Translations under genes and position numbers: made by a program
IMG/VR virus record: IMGVR_UViG_3300032308_000719
Location: 1 to 20,364 of that record
Source: a virus
DNA: 20,364 nt
Strand: one strand, 5' to 3'
Notes under the pieces: model-generated
Database searches by the model: none
What the model saw: the letters and a program-made list of their open reading frames with translations, nothing else
What the model was told of the DNA's origin: nothing
Part shown: positions 5,943 to 12,519 of the stretch, in pieces
How positions within the stretch are numbered: position 1 is the first letter of the stretch
How the letters are laid out: each line of letters starts with the position of its first letter

Positions 5943-7298
5943 TCACAACCCATGCCGCTTGGCCAACCTAGCCTGATACACACGCTCTGCCCAGCCGCGC
6001 TTGTAGCCGCGTTGCTGCGCTAGTTGGCGTAGGTCTTCGAGGGACTGAGCACTGCCCTGCTCGCGTTTGCGCACCCGGGTGGTCAGCTCCTGCAGCTCAC
6101 CCTCAACCACCTTCAGCTCCCTGGTCTCCTGCGGCGCGAACACATGCCCGCAGTCTTGGCAGACCTGCGTGGCGCTCATGCTGGTGGCAAAGCACACCGG
6201 GCACACTTTGACTGATGGCGCCTGCTCGCGGTCGCGTTTTTTGGCACCGTCCAGCGTCCAGTCGCGGTCTTCAAGATGATGCCCCAGCCGCAGCGTATTG
6301 CCTACGTGGTCCAGCACGACGGCAGTCTTGCCTGGAGATAGCCTCAGGCACCGGCCGATCATCTGCAGGTGCAGGCCGACTGACTGCGTTGGCCTGAGCA
6401 GAATGCATCCCCCGACGCTTGGCACGTCCACGCCTTCGCCAATCAGGCTGCAACTGCTCAGCACCTTAATGCGGCCAGTCCCCAGTGCTTGCAACAGATC
6501 TCGCCTGCAATCATTGCTCATGGTGCCGTCAATGCTGGCGGCTGGGATGCCTTGCGACATGAACAGGGCAGCCACCGCCTCGGCGTGTGCCACACTGCAG
6601 CAGAACGCGATCGCGGTCTGGCCTGCCAGATGTTTGCGGTAATGGCTGCAGCAGTCGCCCATGATGGTGCCGACACGCTGCTCGGCCTCCTTGGTGTCAA
6701 AGTCACCCATCCGCTTGCGCAGACCTGTGGTATTGAACCCCGGCGGCGCCAGCACGCGGGCGCTAGCGAGGTAGCCGTTATCGGTCAGCCAAGCAGCGCT
6801 GGGTCCCTGGACCATGGCCTCGTAATGGTCACCGAGCCCACGGCCGTCGCCACGGCATGGGGTCGCTGTGACGCCAAGGACATGCGCTGTTTGGAAATGG
6901 CGAATGACCGATGCCCACTGGCCAGCATTGGTGTGGTGCGCCTCGTCAACCACCAAAAGCTGGAAGAACTCTCCCGGCAGCTTGTGCAGCCTGCGGGCAA
7001 GGGTCTGGACACTGGCAACCTGCACCGCATGGCTCAGGTCCATTCTGCGGCCTGCCGCAATGCGGCCATGAGTGACGCCCATACTGGTGAGCGCTCGGCT
7101 GGCTTGGTCCAACAGCTCAGCGCGATGCACCAAGATGCAGACGCGGTTGCCTTTTTTGGCGGCAGCTTGGGCGATGTAACTAAAGCACACTGTCTTGCCG
7201 CCGCCGGTCGGCAACACTGCTAAGACTCTGTGGTGCCCTAGCTGGTACTGCAGCCGGATGTCGGTGATGAGTTGTTGCTGGTAGGGGCGGAGCTGCAT
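5943..7298 (-). CDS. SF2 DEAD/DEAH-box helicase with C-terminal zinc finger
   Basis: A 451-residue helicase. Motif Q-like LRPYQQQL opens the protein; Walker A is PTGGGKT (30-36), the Walker B box is DEAHH (118-122), motif III TATP (144-147), then GEGVDVPSV (about 288-296) and motif VI QMIGRCLR (312-319). A zinc finger CPVC (366-369) and CQDC (380-383) follows, then a basic helical tail. The type is close to RecB/UvrB-like SSL2/RAD25 helicases seen in phages. I chose ATG at 7298 over TTG at 7319 because residues before it have no family match. It is the first gene of the leftward arm and is followed without spacing by the VRR-NUC nuclease. Confidence 0.92.
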   Translation of the reverse strand: MQLRPYQQQLITDIRLQYQLGHHRVLAVLPTGGGKTVCFSYIAQAAAKKGNRVCILVHRAELLDQASRALTSMGVTHGRIAAGRRMDLSHAVQVASVQTLARRLHKLPGEFFQLLVVDEAHHTNAGQWASVIRHFQTAHVLGVTATPCRGDGRGLGDHYEAMVQGPSAAWLTDNGYLASARVLAPPGFNTTGLRKRMGDFDTKEAEQRVGTIMGDCCSHYRKHLAGQTAIAFCCSVAHAEAVAALFMSQGIPAASIDGTMSNDCRRDLLQALGTGRIKVLSSCSLIGEGVDVPSVGGCILLRPTQSVGLHLQMIGRCLRLSPGKTAVVLDHVGNTLRLGHHLEDRDWTLDGAKKRDREQAPSVKVCPVCFATSMSATQVCQDCGHVFAPQETRELKVVEGELQELTTRVRKREQGSAQSLEDLRQLAQQRGYKRGWAERVYQARLAKRHGL

Positions 7299-7313
7299 GA
7301 TGGTGCCGATGCC

Positions 7314-7341
7314 TTGCAACCTTAGCGGGAGTCGCTAAGCT
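7314..7341. promoter_or_regulatory. divergent control region with a palindrome
   Basis: A perfect inverted repeat, CTTAGCG (7321-7327) and CGCTAAG (7333-7339) around GGAGT, lies in the 65-base gap between the leftward helicase and the rightward small DNA-binding protein. Weak promoter-like pairs flank it in both directions: TTGCAA-N16-TAAGCT on plus and TTGCGC-N17-TAAGGT on minus, so that the palindrome would sit in both spacers and its arms would form part of both -10 boxes. The palindrome is certain; the promoters are tentative. Confidence 0.5.
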
Positions 7342-7363
7342 GCGCAAGCCCCACGCCGAAGAC

Positions 7364-7516
7364 GTGCATCCCATCTCGGTTTTGTTCACGCCCGACCAGG
7401 TCCGCTGGCTTGACGCCCGCCGATCCGCTGGCCTATCCCGCAGCGCCGTCATCAGACTTGTGATCGAGGAGGCCATGCGCCGGTCACTGCCCTCCACCGG
7501 GCGCCGTGAACCATGA
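7364..7516 (+). CDS. small ribbon-helix-helix DNA-binding protein
   Basis: A 50-residue protein read from GTG at 7364 to TGA at 7516. It starts with a strand and helix typical of ribbon-helix-helix (CopG/Arc-like) regulators: ISVLFTPDQVRWLDARRSAG, then a turn and helix LSRSAVIRLVIEEAMRRS. The stop overlaps the primase start by 4 bases (ATGA). Its position directly after a palindrome, between divergent transcription units, suggests a repressor of its own operon and of the helicase operon; that is an inference. GTG is chosen because no ATG is in frame; the 5' end is uncertain. Its motif resembles that of the protein at 9832-10104. Confidence 0.75.
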   Translation: MHPISVLFTPDQVRWLDARRSAGLSRSAVIRLVIEEAMRRSLPSTGRREP

Positions 7517-9555
7517 GCAGTGACTTACTCGGTCAGCTAGCAGCCCTACCGCGCAAGTGGTCCTACGTGGCAGTAGACGGCCAGAAACGTCCATATATGG
7601 ACAACTGGCAGAAGGACTTCATCACCCGTGCGCAGCTTGGCAAGGAACTCAAGTCCGGCCGCGCCAAGGCGATCGGCGTTTGCTGCGGCACGCCAAGCGG
7701 TGGCCTGCTGTTCGTTGACCACGATGGCAAATCCGCGTCCGGGCTTTTTGACGACTGGGGCATCCCGGTCAGCTCATTGCCGCCGTCATGGACCGTAACC
7801 AGCGGCCGCGACGGGCGGTTTCAGATCATCTATCAAGTGCCCCAGCACTACTGGGCAGACATCCGCACCCGTAAATACAAAACCGGCGTCACTGACAGCG
7901 AAGGGAAGCCCGAGCAGGTTGAGCTGCGCTGGGATGGCTGTCAGTCCATCGTTGCCGGCGCTCACCCGCTGACCTCTGGCTATAGCTGGGTGCCAGGGCG
8001 CTCACCTGCCGATCTGGGCATTGCCGAGGCACCTGCAGACCTGATAGCACGCATGTTGCGGCAGCCTGTGCAGACGCCGCTGCCGTTGGTGAGTGCTGCT
8101 GGCAGCGACGATGCCACCCGTGCCCGGTCGTATCTCGAAGCGTTGCAACCCAGCCGCGCCGACGACTATGACGAGTGGCTTGAAGTGGGCATGGCGCTGC
8201 ACAGCGTTGATGATGCCCTTCTGGCGGATTGGATCACATGGTCAGCGCAGTCCTCCAAATTCAAGCCCGGTGACTGCGAGCACAAGTGGCGCGGATTCAA
8301 GTCCGGCGGTGGCATCACCCTTGGCACCCTTGGTCAACTAGCCAAGCAAGATGGCTGGCGCGGGCGGCAGCAATTGGAGCCTGCCCGCCGTGAGCGGTCT
8401 GCAAGCAAGCAGCCGCCGTCAGCGGTGAACCCGCAATTGCAGCCGATGAATGCTGCAGAGCTGCTCAACCTGCTGCGGCACGGCGACAGCGCTTACCGCT
8501 ACAACACCTTCACCCAGCGCATCGAGGTAGACGGTGCGCCAATCGAGGGCGCCGAGCGGTTTTACCTCACCCTGGCCGAGATGGGTTACAAGGTCTCCAA
8601 AGAGGTAGCCCTTGACTGCATTGTGCAGGTGGCCAATGAGTCGCCGTATGACCCGGTTGTCGAGTACCTCGACCGCGTTGCTGCCACGGTGGCACCTGCT
8701 TACATCGAAGCGCTGTCTACTGCCTACCTGCGCCCAACCGACACGCCTGGCACCATATACGACGAGATGCTTAAACGCACGCTGATCGGTGCTGTTGCCC
8801 GCGCCTATCACCCTGGCTGCAAACACGACACAGCATGCGTGATCATGGGCGACCAAGGCGCCTACAAGTCATCATTCTGGGCGTGCCTTGGCCATGACTT
8901 TTTCAGTGATGCCTTAGGTGATATCAGCAGCAAAGATGACCTGATGGTGTTGCATAGGTCGTGGATTATGGAGTGGGCAGAACTTGACCATGTAACCAAT
9001 CGCAAGCACGCAGGTCAGGTCAAAGCGTTCCTATCGCAGGCAGTCGATATGTTCCGCGTGCCATATGGCAAGGCCACTGAGGCATTCCCAAGGCGCGGCA
9101 TCATCGTCGGCACAACTAACCGCACCACCGGCTTTTTGGTGGATGAAACTGGCAACCGCCGCTTCTGGGTAATACCCACCACCAAGACGCAGGCGGACCA
9201 GATTGACACCGCCGCGCTATTGCTGGAGCGCGATGCAATATGGTCCGCCGCTGTTGCTGCGTACCGCGCTGGTGAGACCAGCAGGCTGCCAATGCAGTAC
9301 GAGGTGAAGCTATCCGAGGAGAATGAATCTTACGTCATTGATAACCCTTGGCAGGCGGAAATTGAGGCATGGTTACGTAAACACGGTGAGATTGATTTGA
9401 CGACTGAAAAGATATTGACTGAAGCCATTAAGAAACCCGTAGAACGGCAAACCAGGGCTGACCAGATGCAGGTTGCAGATGTGCTCAAGCGGCTTGGATT
9501 CAAGCGGTACCGCAGCGGCAAAGGGTCGAGCAGGGCGTACGTATACCGTAAGTAG
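7513..9555 (+). CDS. bifunctional primase-polymerase / VirE-type helicase
   Basis: A 680-residue replication protein of three parts. Residues about 10-180 resemble the Prim-Pol (archaeo-eukaryotic primase) fold, with the acidic pair in FVDHDG (67-72) and SGRDGRFQIIY where a histidine motif is normally expected. Residues about 205-285 are a PriCT-2-like helical domain (YLEALQPSRADDYDEWLEVG, later CEHKWRGF). Residues about 380-640 are a VirE-type superfamily-3-like ATPase: Walker A GDQGAYKSS (446-454), SWIMEWAELDH (483-493), and IIVGTTNRTTGF with the arginine-rich GNRRFW. It would lay primers and unwind DNA at a phage origin. It heads a rightward replication operon and is followed by the repeat-rich region. 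Confidence 0.92.
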   Translation: MSSDLLGQLAALPRKWSYVAVDGQKRPYMDNWQKDFITRAQLGKELKSGRAKAIGVCCGTPSGGLLFVDHDGKSASGLFDDWGIPVSSLPPSWTVTSGRDGRFQIIYQVPQHYWADIRTRKYKTGVTDSEGKPEQVELRWDGCQSIVAGAHPLTSGYSWVPGRSPADLGIAEAPADLIARMLRQPVQTPLPLVSAAGSDDATRARSYLEALQPSRADDYDEWLEVGMALHSVDDALLADWITWSAQSSKFKPGDCEHKWRGFKSGGGITLGTLGQLAKQDGWRGRQQLEPARRERSASKQPPSAVNPQLQPMNAAELLNLLRHGDSAYRYNTFTQRIEVDGAPIEGAERFYLTLAEMGYKVSKEVALDCIVQVANESPYDPVVEYLDRVAATVAPAYIEALSTAYLRPTDTPGTIYDEMLKRTLIGAVARAYHPGCKHDTACVIMGDQGAYKSSFWACLGHDFFSDALGDISSKDDLMVLHRSWIMEWAELDHVTNRKHAGQVKAFLSQAVDMFRVPYGKATEAFPRRGIIVGTTNRTTGFLVDETGNRRFWVIPTTKTQADQIDTAALLLERDAIWSAAVAAYRAGETSRLPMQYEVKLSEENESYVIDNPWQAEIEAWLRKHGEIDLTTEKILTEAIKKPVERQTRADQMQVADVLKRLGFKRYRSGKGSSRAYVYRK

Positions 9556-9558
9556 TAC

Positions 9559-9572
9559 CCCACCTAGGTGGG
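9559..9572. repeat. 14-bp perfect palindrome
   Basis: CCCACCT followed directly by AGGTGGG, four bases after the primase stop codon. It is formed by a direct and an inverted copy of the local repeat core, so a dimeric DNA-binding protein could occupy it. Confidence 0.7.
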
Positions 9573-9717
9573 ACGGGTACCCCACCTCTGAATCGCCCAG
9601 ATGCGCTGCGCTGCAGCCGATGTCGGGGAGGTGCCCCACCTGTCCCACGTCCTACCTCGGTCTGAAACTTCCCTACGTTCCCCTACGCGTCCTTCTATTC
9701 CTTTATTTGTTTTGATA

Positions 9718-9737
9718 TAGGTAGGGTTAGGTAGGGT
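9718..9737. repeat. exact tandem repeat of TAGGTAGGGT
   Basis: Two adjacent identical 10-base units at 9718-9727 and 9728-9737, at the right edge of the AT-rich stretch. The reverse complement ACCCTACCTA is close to the repeat core nearby. Confidence 0.7.
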
Positions 9738-9788
9738 ACGTGGGGAACTCCCGCTCTGTGACTGGGTTTTGACGGTACCCCACCTCGT

Positions 9789-9809
9789 CCCACCTTGCTG
9801 GTAGGTGGG
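9789..9809. repeat. inverted repeat upstream of the DNA-binding protein gene
   Basis: CCCACCT (9789-9795) and AGGTGGG (9803-9809) form a 7-bp stem around a 7-base loop, ending 22 bases before the start of the downstream ribbon-helix-helix gene. It could be an operator for that protein. Confidence 0.6.
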
Positions 9810-9831
9810 GAACTGCCTTATGGTGACTGGC

Positions 9832-10104
9832 ATGAAAGAAATCAAAGTCCGGTTCACGCCTGCAGACCTCGCAGTGCTGGACCAGCAAGCCGCAGCGGCA
9901 GGCATCACCCGATCTGAACTGGTGCGCTCGCGGGCACTTGTTTCAAATTGTCAACACGGCCTTACCGTCGCCGGTTACCACCAGCTAGTGTCCGATGCGC
10001 TAGCCAATGTGCGTGGGGACATCCCACGGCGCATGGTTGAGCAGCTCGTCGCTTATGTCATTACATGGATCTCATCAACATCACAGCCAAGCAGCAACCC
10101 GTAA
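9832..10104 (+). CDS. ribbon-helix-helix-like DNA-binding protein
   Basis: A 90-residue protein. The first 45 residues fit a ribbon-helix-helix domain: strand EIKVRFTPADLAVLDQQA, then AAGITRSELVRSRALV. The rest is a helical extension (GYHQLVSDALANVRGDIPRR) without a known motif. I chose ATG at 9832, with GGTGA 5 bases before it; ATG at 9820 (four more residues) is a close alternative with GGGGA ahead of it. It directly follows the repeat cluster, so it may bind those repeats to control this operon or replication; that is an inference. Its 3' end overlaps the next gene by 40 bases. Confidence 0.75.
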   Translation: MKEIKVRFTPADLAVLDQQAAAAGITRSELVRSRALVSNCQHGLTVAGYHQLVSDALANVRGDIPRRMVEQLVAYVITWISSTSQPSSNP

Positions 10105-10265
10105 TCAACCGGCTTCATGACGCCATGGAGCACGCGCTTGCGTATGCCGCCGCAATCCGCGACAATGCCCAAGATGACCAGCAACCCATCCCGGCTGAAC
10201 TGGTCGCTTCCTTTGCCGCTGACTACGAGCGGCTCATCTCCATCCTTACCGACGCCGCCACATGA
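10065..10265 (+). CDS. small hypothetical protein
   Basis: A 66-residue helical protein with an acidic, alanine-rich middle (AMEHALAYAAAIRDNAQDDQ) and no known motif. Its start lies within the preceding gene (40-base overlap) and its stop overlaps the sliding clamp start by 4 bases (ATGA), which supports it as a real member of the replication operon. Its function is unknown. Confidence 0.7.
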   Translation: MDLINITAKQQPVINRLHDAMEHALAYAAAIRDNAQDDQQPIPAELVASFAADYERLISILTDAAT

Positions 10266-11302
10266 AACTCATCACCACGCAGGCTGATCTCAGCCATGCG
10301 CTGCGCACCATTGCACCAGCCATCAGCACCAGCAACAGCCACCCGATCCTGAGCTGTTGCCTGATTGCTGCCGATGGCGCAACCATGACCGTCACAGGCT
10401 TCAACCTGGACCTCGGCATCACGGTGTCCGTGCCGGCAGCCATCGACACACCTGGCACCGTGGCGCTGCCGTATCGGCTGCTGGCGGGCTTGGTCAGCCG
10501 CATGGACGATGGCGAGCCCGTGACGCTTTCAGACGGCACTGTGAGCGCCTCCAGCGGCTCTTATGGGCTTGCTGTGCAGGATGCAGCCGATTACCCCGGC
10601 ATGCCGGTTGTGAAGGCTCCTAGCGCTGAGCTGGACCTGACCGCTGGTGTGCGTGCTTGCATGGCAGCCGTCAGCACCGATGCCAGTAAGCAGATCCTCC
10701 AAGGCATCCACATGGCAGCCGGGTTCATGGAGGCCACCGACGGCCACCGGCTGATGCGTGTGCCCGTAGCGCTGCCCGATGGCATTGACCTGGTACTACC
10801 AGCCAGCACCATGAAGCTGCTGCAGAACCGCACCGTCACCGTGGCAGCAGCAACCGGCCAAGCGGTGATCGACGCCGGTGATGGCATCACCATCTACAGC
10901 CGCATCCTTGACGGCAAGTACCCCGACGTGGCAGCGCTGGTGCCCGCCAGCTTTGAGCACACCATGACCCTCGACCGGCACCGCTTTGCCCGTTGCCTCG
11001 AGCGTGTCGCGCTGATCGCAGAGGCGCACAACTCCGTGGTCAAGCTGGTCGCCGCTGCTGGTGTACTGGCCATCACCGCCGAGGCCGATGCCAACAACGG
11101 CAAAGAGCTGATCACCTACGAAGGCACCGCCGCAGGTTCATGGGCGTTCAACGTGCATTACCTGCTTGATGGTCTGAAAGCCATGCGCGGTCACAAAACC
11201 GTGCTGCTATCCGCTAATGCAGCTACAACCCCTGTAACATTGCAGCCAGCAGACAAAACTGGTATGACCTACCTAGTCATGCCGGTGCAAATCAGAGAAT
11301 GA
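10262..11302 (+). CDS. dnaN: DNA polymerase III beta sliding clamp
   Basis: A 346-residue homologue of bacterial DnaN (usual length about 366-390), with the three-domain clamp recognisable throughout: an N-terminal MKLITTQADLSHALRTIAPA and THPILSCCLI-like SHPILSCC; the middle ATDGHRLMRVPV; YPDVAALVP; and the end MTYLVMPVQIRE, like the conserved terminal VMPMRL. As a ring it would tether the replicating polymerase to DNA. A phage-encoded beta clamp is unusual and suggests that host Pol III is recruited. Both its start and its end overlap neighbours by 4 bases (ATGA), placing it firmly in the primase operon. No clamp loader or polymerase gene is in the window. Confidence 0.95.
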   Translation: MKLITTQADLSHALRTIAPAISTSNSHPILSCCLIAADGATMTVTGFNLDLGITVSVPAAIDTPGTVALPYRLLAGLVSRMDDGEPVTLSDGTVSASSGSYGLAVQDAADYPGMPVVKAPSAELDLTAGVRACMAAVSTDASKQILQGIHMAAGFMEATDGHRLMRVPVALPDGIDLVLPASTMKLLQNRTVTVAAATGQAVIDAGDGITIYSRILDGKYPDVAALVPASFEHTMTLDRHRFARCLERVALIAEAHNSVVKLVAAAGVLAITAEADANNGKELITYEGTAAGSWAFNVHYLLDGLKAMRGHKTVLLSANAATTPVTLQPADKTGMTYLVMPVQIRE

Positions 11303-12519
11303 CATCCATCAAGGATCTAAAGTCCGATCACAAAAACGCCCGCAAGCGTACAGACCGCTCGGCAAAGCTCATTGCTGAGTCGCTGCAGCGTTTTGGTGCC
11401 GCACGCAGCATTGTTATCGACGAAGAGAACCGCATCCTTGCTGGCAACGGCACCATCGAAGGTGCCAAAGCAGCAGGCATCAAGAATGTCCGGGTCATCG
11501 AAACCGATGGCACCGAGATCATTGCCGTCAAGCGCATCGGCCTAACCGAAGACGAGAAGATCGGCCTTGCCTTGGCCGATAACCGCACCAGTGACCTGTC
11601 CGACTGGGACAAGGACATGCTGCAGCAGCTCAGTGAGGAGCACGACATTGCCCCATGGTTTGATGCCGATGATCTAGCCGAGATCCTTGGCACAGTCGAG
11701 CAGTTGCCCACCGAAGGCTTGACTGATGCGGACGACGTGCCTGAGGCGCCTGCGGAGCCCATCACCAATCCCGGTGACCTCTGGATCCTTGGCGATCACC
11801 GCTTGCTTTGCGGGGACAGCACAAACATCCAACACGTCGAGCGCCTCATGGATGGGCAGAAGGCCGACATGGTGTTCACTGATCCGCCTTATGGGGTCGC
11901 CTACGAAGGCGGGCACAACGAAAAGAAGCGCCATCAGATTAAAAACGATGCACTTGAAGGCTCTGATCTGACAAATCTTTTTGCCGATTCGCTTGCCTCT
12001 GCTCTAACTGTTACAGCAAATCACGCAGCTTTCTACGTCTGGTTTGCATCTGGAAAAAGTGTTGAAACATTTGCTTCATTCGCAAAGCTTCCTCTTGAAC
12101 TGCGAGCCGTAATCCAGTGGTATAAAGTCCGATCTGGACTGGGTGCTTTTATGGCTCAATACATCCCTAATTGCGAACCCTGTATCTATGCTTTCAAATC
12201 AGGATTTTCCCCGCAGTGGTTCGGTCCCTCTGACGAGAAGACGGTGTGGGAGCTGCAGAAGGAAGCACGCAACGAGTTCCACCCGACGCAAAAACCTGTC
12301 GAATTACCTGAGCGCGCCATCAGCAACAGCAGCAAAAAAGGCCAACTGGTGCTCGACCTGTTCGGCGGCTCTGGCAGCACGCTGATCGCGTGTGAGAAGA
12401 CCGGGCGCAAAGCTCGCCTTATGGAACTTGACCCCGCCTACTGCGACGTGATCGTTCAACGTTGGCAGGCATTTACCGGCAAGCTCGCTACCCTTGAGGA
12501 AAATAAGGAGGCGTTCTAA
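11299..12519 (+). CDS. ParB-like / DNA methyltransferase fusion
   Basis: A 406-residue protein. Residues about 1-130 form a ParB/Srx-like domain (KNARKRTDRSAKLIAESLQRF, then ILAGNGTIEGAKAAG, then LALADNRTSDLSDWD). Residues about 160-400 are a DNA N6-adenine/N4-cytosine methyltransferase of the beta class: the catalytic motif DPPY (195-198) precedes the AdoMet-binding FGGSGS (355-360), with HPTQKPVELPERA between them. Such phage enzymes usually protect the genome from host restriction. About 11935-12235 (residues 212-312) is clearly AT-richer than the rest, about 45% GC by hand count against 55-60% in sampled flanks, pointing to a replaced central, probably target-recognition, segment. It overlaps the clamp gene by 4 bases. 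Confidence 0.94.
   Translation: MTSIKDLKSDHKNARKRTDRSAKLIAESLQRFGAARSIVIDEENRILAGNGTIEGAKAAGIKNVRVIETDGTEIIAVKRIGLTEDEKIGLALADNRTSDLSDWDKDMLQQLSEEHDIAPWFDADDLAEILGTVEQLPTEGLTDADDVPEAPAEPITNPGDLWILGDHRLLCGDSTNIQHVERLMDGQKADMVFTDPPYGVAYEGGHNEKKRHQIKNDALEGSDLTNLFADSLASALTVTANHAAFYVWFASGKSVETFASFAKLPLELRAVIQWYKVRSGLGAFMAQYIPNCEPCIYAFKSGFSPQWFGPSDEKTVWELQKEARNEFHPTQKPVELPERAISNSSKKGQLVLDLFGGSGSTLIACEKTGRKARLMELDPAYCDVIVQRWQAFTGKLATLEENKEAF

Follow-up and report, generated by a model that had tools for sequence, protein, structure and literature searches.

The stretch at 9553–9815 of the window, by which we mean the whole 20,364-base IMG/VR virus fragment analyzed here, is very probably a cyanophage replication origin whose iterons would be bound by the predicted winged-helix domain of the adjacent primase-helicase, the two together forming an exchangeable cassette. 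It is best read as an initiator-specific iteron origin, laid out like the pri-rep-ori region of SaPIs and PICIs but carried in full cyanophages. The best isolate relative by primase (51.5% identity) is S-LBS1, a Synechococcus phage of Lake Bourget (PMC6157547), which makes a freshwater cyanophage the most likely source of the fragment. Genes for a helicase, an endonuclease (PHROG call), a DUF3799 nuclease, RecT, SSB and a sigma factor lie leftward; following the array are a ribbon-helix-helix (RHH) protein, a 66-residue frame, a DnaN-type clamp, a methylase, the large terminase, the portal and the major capsid protein. Although no relaxase gene is visible in the window, the RHH protein has its match in the NikA-like mobilisation family. 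Just upstream of the primase start, a GTG-started 50-residue frame at 7364–7516 (+), VHPISVLFTPDQVRWLDARRSAGLSRSAVIRLVIEEAM..., resembles a second RHH protein and has no Pfam match. The methylase gene (11299–12519) adjoins the clamp gene, and by eye the N-terminal part of its product is ParB-like.

The repeated word of the array, CCYACCT, occurs ten times in 9556–9815, six times on the + strand and four on the − strand, whereas 2000 dinucleotide shuffles of these 260 nt gave 0.28 copies on average and never more than 2; the remaining 20.1 kb of the window contains two copies, at 8723 and 11268. By a motif-free measure, the top 7-mer of 9556–9815 has a multiplicity of 7; one shuffle in 2000 reached this value, and 300 other 260-nt windows did not go above 4. 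All five copies of CCCCACCT in the whole window fall inside the array, and 0 of 100 shuffles of the window reached five. The array begins at the stop codon of the PrimPol-PriCT_2-VapE helicase gene, and its iterons flank an AT-rich tract, with both orientations represented on either side. Two features of an iteron-type origin are found here: short repeats that are clustered in non-coding DNA and unique in the genome, and a conserved AT-rich stretch (9696–9715) between two repeat groups. The primase-helicase gene, a candidate initiator gene, is adjacent to the array and covaries with it.

Most of the motifs listed for this region in the initial annotation are present as described. Four direct copies of a core are found (TACCCCACCT, exact at 9556, 9578 and 9776, and the variant TGCCCCACCT at 9632–9641), as are a unit present both ways (CGTCCCACCT at 9786 on the + strand and at 9566–9575 on the − strand), two CCCTACG units at 9671 and 9681 with a spacing of exactly 10, an exact tandem pair of TAGGTAGGGT at 9718 and 9728, and an AT-rich centre, of which the 20-nt block 9696–9715 is 80% A+T. 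The inverted copies call for a small correction: exact AGGTGGGG occurs just once on the + strand (9803), and the rest are variants, namely AGGTGGGAC (9566), TAGGTAGGGT twice and ACGTGGGG (9739). Rfam gave no matches across 7200–10400, a tRNA scan found no tRNA genes, promoter and terminator scans of the array region returned nothing above chance, and phage-isolate DNA searched with the array sequence gave no matches. Coordinates are collected in the table.

Features of the proposed origin and its neighbours in the window
Feature	Position	Strand	Basis
Primase-helicase gene: PrimPol (PF09250), PriCT_2 (PF08707), VapE-like SF3 helicase (PF05272); proposed initiator	7513..9555	+	Pfam; best solved relative PriRep1 7pds
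C-terminal domain, residues 601-680, predicted winged helix, proposed repeat reader	9313..9552	+	AlphaFold2; covariation with array
Lys670 codon, wing	9520..9522	+	K in CC-type, A/I/T in CT-type loci
Proposed replication origin: CCYACCT iterons around AT-rich tract	9553..9815	.	Repeat counts, conservation
Iteron GTACCCCACCT	9555..9565	+	Motif match
Iteron CGTCCCACCT, inverted, head to head with iteron 9555..9565	9566..9575	-	Motif match
Iteron GTACCCCACCT	9577..9587	+	Motif match
Iteron GTGCCCCACCT	9631..9641	+	Motif match
Iteron CGTCCTACCT; most close relatives have CGTCCCACCT here	9648..9657	+	Motif match, alignment
CCCTACG pair, 10 bases apart, edge of unwinding tract (proposed)	9671..9687	+	Partly conserved
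AT-rich tract TATTCCTTTATTTGTTTTGATATA, proposed DNA unwinding element	9696..9719	.	80% A+T in 9696-9715; conserved in close relatives
Tandem inverted iterons, TAGGTAGGGT twice = ACCCTACCTA on - strand	9718..9737	-	Motif match
Degenerate inverted iteron GTTCCCCACGT	9738..9748	-	Conserved in close clade
Iteron GTACCCCACCT	9775..9785	+	Motif match
Iteron CGTCCCACCT	9786..9795	+	Motif match
Inverted iteron GTTCCCCACCT	9803..9813	-	Motif match
RHH protein, NikA-like, PF21983; not judged array reader	9832..10104	+	Pfam
DnaN-type sliding clamp, same replication block	10262..11302	+	Domain match

A primase search of IMG/VR gave 80 relatives, and three further searches enlarged the set to 147 distinct homologous loci (denoted L below). 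In close relatives the interval between the primase and RHH genes aligns end to end, with the iterons, the AT-rich tract and the inverted block all retained; the majority fraction in this alignment is 0.924 for core columns and 0.803 for spacers (rank test p 1e-10, columns treated as independent). Across all 147 loci, the 300 nt that follow the primase contain on average 5.4 copies of their commonest 7-mer (shuffles, 2.2; other windows from these loci, 2.4), and 101 of the 147 exceed every one of their 60 shuffles. Six near-complete relatives (37–42 kb) carry all their copies of CCCCACCT, four to six each, in a single stretch of ~260 nt and none elsewhere. The array is therefore conserved in position and, in the window's clade, unique in the genome. 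Its recurrence at the same position in relatives that have the primase and clamp genes was the main test that the initial annotation had set for an origin, and arrays follow the primase even at loci where RHH and clamp genes were not found. GC skew in four near-complete genomes was weak and inconsistent, with no minimum at the array. To our knowledge, few origins have been mapped in phages with a PrimPol-SF3 helicase, and a literature search of incomplete coverage found no paper on iteron origins of cyanophages.

The place of the array is kept while its word changes. Arrays are built on lineage-specific words (CCCCACCT, CCCTACCT, TCCTACCT, CCTAACCT, GCCAACCT), and the copies within one array mostly change together. 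CCCTACCT is found in L012, L047 and L038–L042 except L039, TCCTACCT in the L031 group, CCTAACCT in S-LBS1, GCCAACCT in L235 and L249, and TTCCAACCT in L271; other words also occur among the relatives, such as GCCCTACCT in L246. Mapped onto a helicase tree, the dominant array type requires at least 16 changes, as opposed to 35 with shuffled labels, the former count being approximate since the tree was built quickly and its branches are weak. At one end of the S-LBS1 record (MG271909; L083:22170–22550), the sequence stops inside the array and includes a 127-nt exact duplicate, so the published genome is possibly misassembled or incomplete at its putative origin.

The protein that would read these words is predicted from its sequence to end in a suitable domain. 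The primase-helicase has 680 residues with Prim-Pol, PriCT_2 and VapE-like helicase domains and is homologous to SaPI PriRep/Rep; the best solved relative of the whole protein is PriRep1 bound to dsDNA (7pds), by fold (E 5.8e-11) as well as by a profile match over the helicase (E 4e-34). AlphaFold2 places helices at 614–624, 631–637 and 648–660 and strands at 664–670 and 673–679, with a mean pLDDT of 83 for the C-terminal domain modelled alone, and the predicted three helices and two-stranded wing of residues 614–679 follow a winged-helix plan. Foldseek searches with this domain alone returned many winged-helix proteins, PriRep1 among them, all of them weak (best E 0.16, none below E 0.1). The assignment draws on both the predicted secondary structure and these weak fold matches.

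Array content was compared with divergence in the RHH protein, in helicase residues 320–600 and in the wing region, taken as the final 31 residues of the primase-helicase. The word tracks the wing, with relatedness to be kept in mind. In the 70 loci that have an RHH gene, the wing had a partial Mantel correlation with array content of 0.496 once helicase and RHH were controlled for (0 of 300 permutations). Family-wide, over 85 unique wing-by-core types, the value was 0.365 for the wing with the helicase controlled for and 0.03 for the reverse; a permutation test that set missing distances to 1 gave 0.347 (0 of 500). That caution arises because tree-independent pairs of CT and other arrays, in which the wing class agrees in 4, disagrees in 0 and does not differ in 4 (sign test p 0.125), yield only four informative comparisons, too few for significance. 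Among pairs with nearly the same helicase, which are not independent, the median wing distance was 0.31 for different array types and 0.11 for the same type. Within the window's clade, the identity of residue 670 agrees with a core base in 36 of 36 loci, being K in all 25 labelled CC-type loci and A, I or T in all 11 of CT type, a pattern that may reflect only two or three evolutionary events. The correspondence of wing and word is not a strict code, as L300/L301 and L173/L166 have near-identical wings and different array labels.

Natural exchanges of the primase tail and array were found in S-LBS1-like loci. L246 and L253 have helicases that are 98% identical and differ in the last 240 coding bases and the whole array: DNA identity is ~0.95–1.0 upstream, 0.3–0.75 across the 240 coding bases and 300-nt array, and 0.98 at +300, a profile indicating that tail and array were swapped as one block while the DNA downstream was unchanged. 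The 5′ border of this block lies approximately at the start of the winged-helix domain. In L278/L274 there is a similarly abrupt fall in identity over the last 60–120 coding bases and the array, with patchy recovery. We propose that the winged-helix domain and iterons constitute a specificity cassette that recombination would replace as a unit.

The same exchanges could be given other meanings. Tail and array might be a contested cassette: with an origin word in common, co-infecting phages or satellites could exploit or attack it, and frequent swapping would follow. A stand-alone 83-residue frame lies between the array and the RHH gene in L023 (7329–7580), and also in L017 and L026; over 49 residues it is ~41% identical to the primase C-terminal domain, and its product is a possible second iteron reader. 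That this winged-helix-like protein is an origin-directed competitor or decoy, and the cassette contested in this way, we regard as a doubtful extension of the proposal. An array with some other role, for example as a packaging or recombination site, that travels with the primase tail by adjacency alone is unlikely. Recombination does co-transfer adjacent sequences, linkage alone could move tail and array together given that they adjoin, and in S-LBS1 the array is also just upstream of terS, across the record ends. In the window, however, the array sits between the primase and clamp genes, ~2.9 kb from the large terminase gene, and the RHH gene, equally near on the other side, does not track it. 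Adjacency also fits poorly with an exchanged block that starts near the border of the winged-helix domain in L246/L253 and with the agreement at residue 670.

The initial annotation had offered an operator array for the RHH protein as the alternative to an origin. Such a site, whether an operator for operon autoregulation or a centromere-like site for partition, would suit an array that ends ~17 bases upstream of the RHH start codon; close relatives keep the RHH gene at that place, and RHH proteins often bind short repeats. We nevertheless consider it very unlikely. In the same 70 loci, the partial Mantel correlation of array type with RHH divergence, given helicase and wing, was −0.08, and two loci with almost identical RHH DNA-binding strands, L047 and L011, carry different arrays. 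No RHH gene was called behind the array in 59 of 146 loci, and tblastn of 30 of these returned no match to RHH or DnaN that was convincing. The S-LBS1-like loci (L246/L253, L278/L274) yielded neither an RHH nor a clamp gene downstream; in them array and primase tail move together between unchanged flanks, which itself argues against the RHH protein as reader. The array region contains no promoter-like site, and neither a ParA nor a relaxase gene was seen in the window. The origin half of that alternative is supported by an array that keeps its place and follows the primase where no RHH gene is present; the operator half is contradicted by the Mantel result and by those same loci. A separate protein encoded nearby is a less likely initiator than the primase-helicase, which would act by way of its predicted winged-helix domain at the C-terminus.

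A stem-loop origin of the kind found in the crenarchaeal plasmid pRN1, which requires a 100-nt stem-loop 3′ of its PrimPol-SF3-winged-helix gene (PMC4234260), is very unlikely. Hairpins can be folded behind the primase in many loci, but the window's own local fold is weak, and a candidate conserved hairpin between iterons was rejected when its covariation in 21 sequences did not rise above shuffles (0 pairs changed on both sides versus 1.2; 72.2% of cells paired versus 72.4%).

For an iteron origin read by the primase-helicase, the following order of events can be proposed by analogy. The C-terminal winged-helix domain would bind the CCYACCT iterons, which start at the stop codon of its own gene, and oligomers of the SF3 (VapE-type) helicase would assemble on the two iteron groups. 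The AT-rich tract between these groups (9696–9719) would melt, the PrimPol domain would lay the first primers, and the clamp encoded by the neighbouring gene and the host polymerase would extend them.

Related plans occur outside this family. Synechococcus phage S-H1 (L324; MK105819, 1123–5267) keeps the order primase, array, RHH, DnaN but has a Zn-ribbon/Toprim primase and the repeat TCC[TG]AACGG; both initiator gene and repeat are different, the former by replacement. Pseudomonas phage vB_Pae_U5 (L327:3850–4125) has an intergenic CTGTCCCACC array, above 300 shuffles, ~370 nt behind its primase and after one intervening gene, and the same primase-array plan may thus exist well outside cyanophages. 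Arrays behind the PrimPol/VapE genes of S-2L and BPP-1 were not significant.

Among characterized systems, the closest in layout are the SaPIs and PICIs. The C-terminal domain of SaPI Rep, like that of SCCmec Cch2, recognizes iterons located 3′ of its own gene (PMC7581432), and in PICIs the origin lies directly 3′ of rep, with an AT-rich region between two sets of iterons (PMC6092414). The window likewise encodes a VapE-type helicase, which in SaPIs and PICIs is sometimes fused to a primase, and its proposed origin, an AT-rich stretch flanked by iterons, follows the primase-helicase gene directly on the 3′ side. The window differs in its PrimPol-PriCT_2-VapE architecture, in the two iteron orientations per side and in the many iteron types within the family. 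Because large terminase, portal and major capsid genes are present, its carrier is a full phage rather than a satellite and does not count as a PICI. With pRN1 (ORF56/ORF904) the window shares a PrimPol, an SF3 helicase and a predicted C-terminal winged helix, and the short RHH-like frame before the primase recalls the repressor gene orf56 before orf904; a PriCT_2 domain is common to the window and BIP-1 (phages BIP-1/BPP-1). The pRN1 origin falls within 166 bp downstream of the gene and contains a stem-loop but no iterons; specific binding could not be shown (PMC4234260). The window, in contrast, has iterons and no supported stem-loop; the motifs bound by the replication protein had not yet been identified in that pRN1/BIP-1 study (PMC4234260). 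As described in PMC4234260, which cites Ziegelin and Lanka 1995 and Yeo et al. 2002, the alpha primase-helicase of satellite phage P4 binds origin repeats through a winged helix; unlike the window's enzyme, it has a Toprim-type primase.

The PLE satellites of Vibrio cholerae offer the nearest parallel to the exchange: the DNA-binding domain of RepA_N and an iteron origin covary and swap as a module, and replication needs the cognate pair (PMC8263062). Covariation and joint exchange of the predicted DNA-binding domain of a putative initiator and an iteron array are seen here as well, but RepA_N is an unrelated initiator with an N-terminal DNA-binding domain and without primase or helicase, and PLEs have two module types where the window's family has at least five core types. 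A PICI-type origin plan and PLE-type swapping of domain and origin are thus already known; here the natural variation is unusually rich. The 147-locus family supplies candidates for the motifs, the reader domain and the specificity residue (Lys670), together with natural swaps, and the paired alignment of putative reader and site can be used to study how initiator specificity changes. Our reading places a PICI-style origin plan, so far as can be judged by such comparison, in full phages of cyanobacteria.
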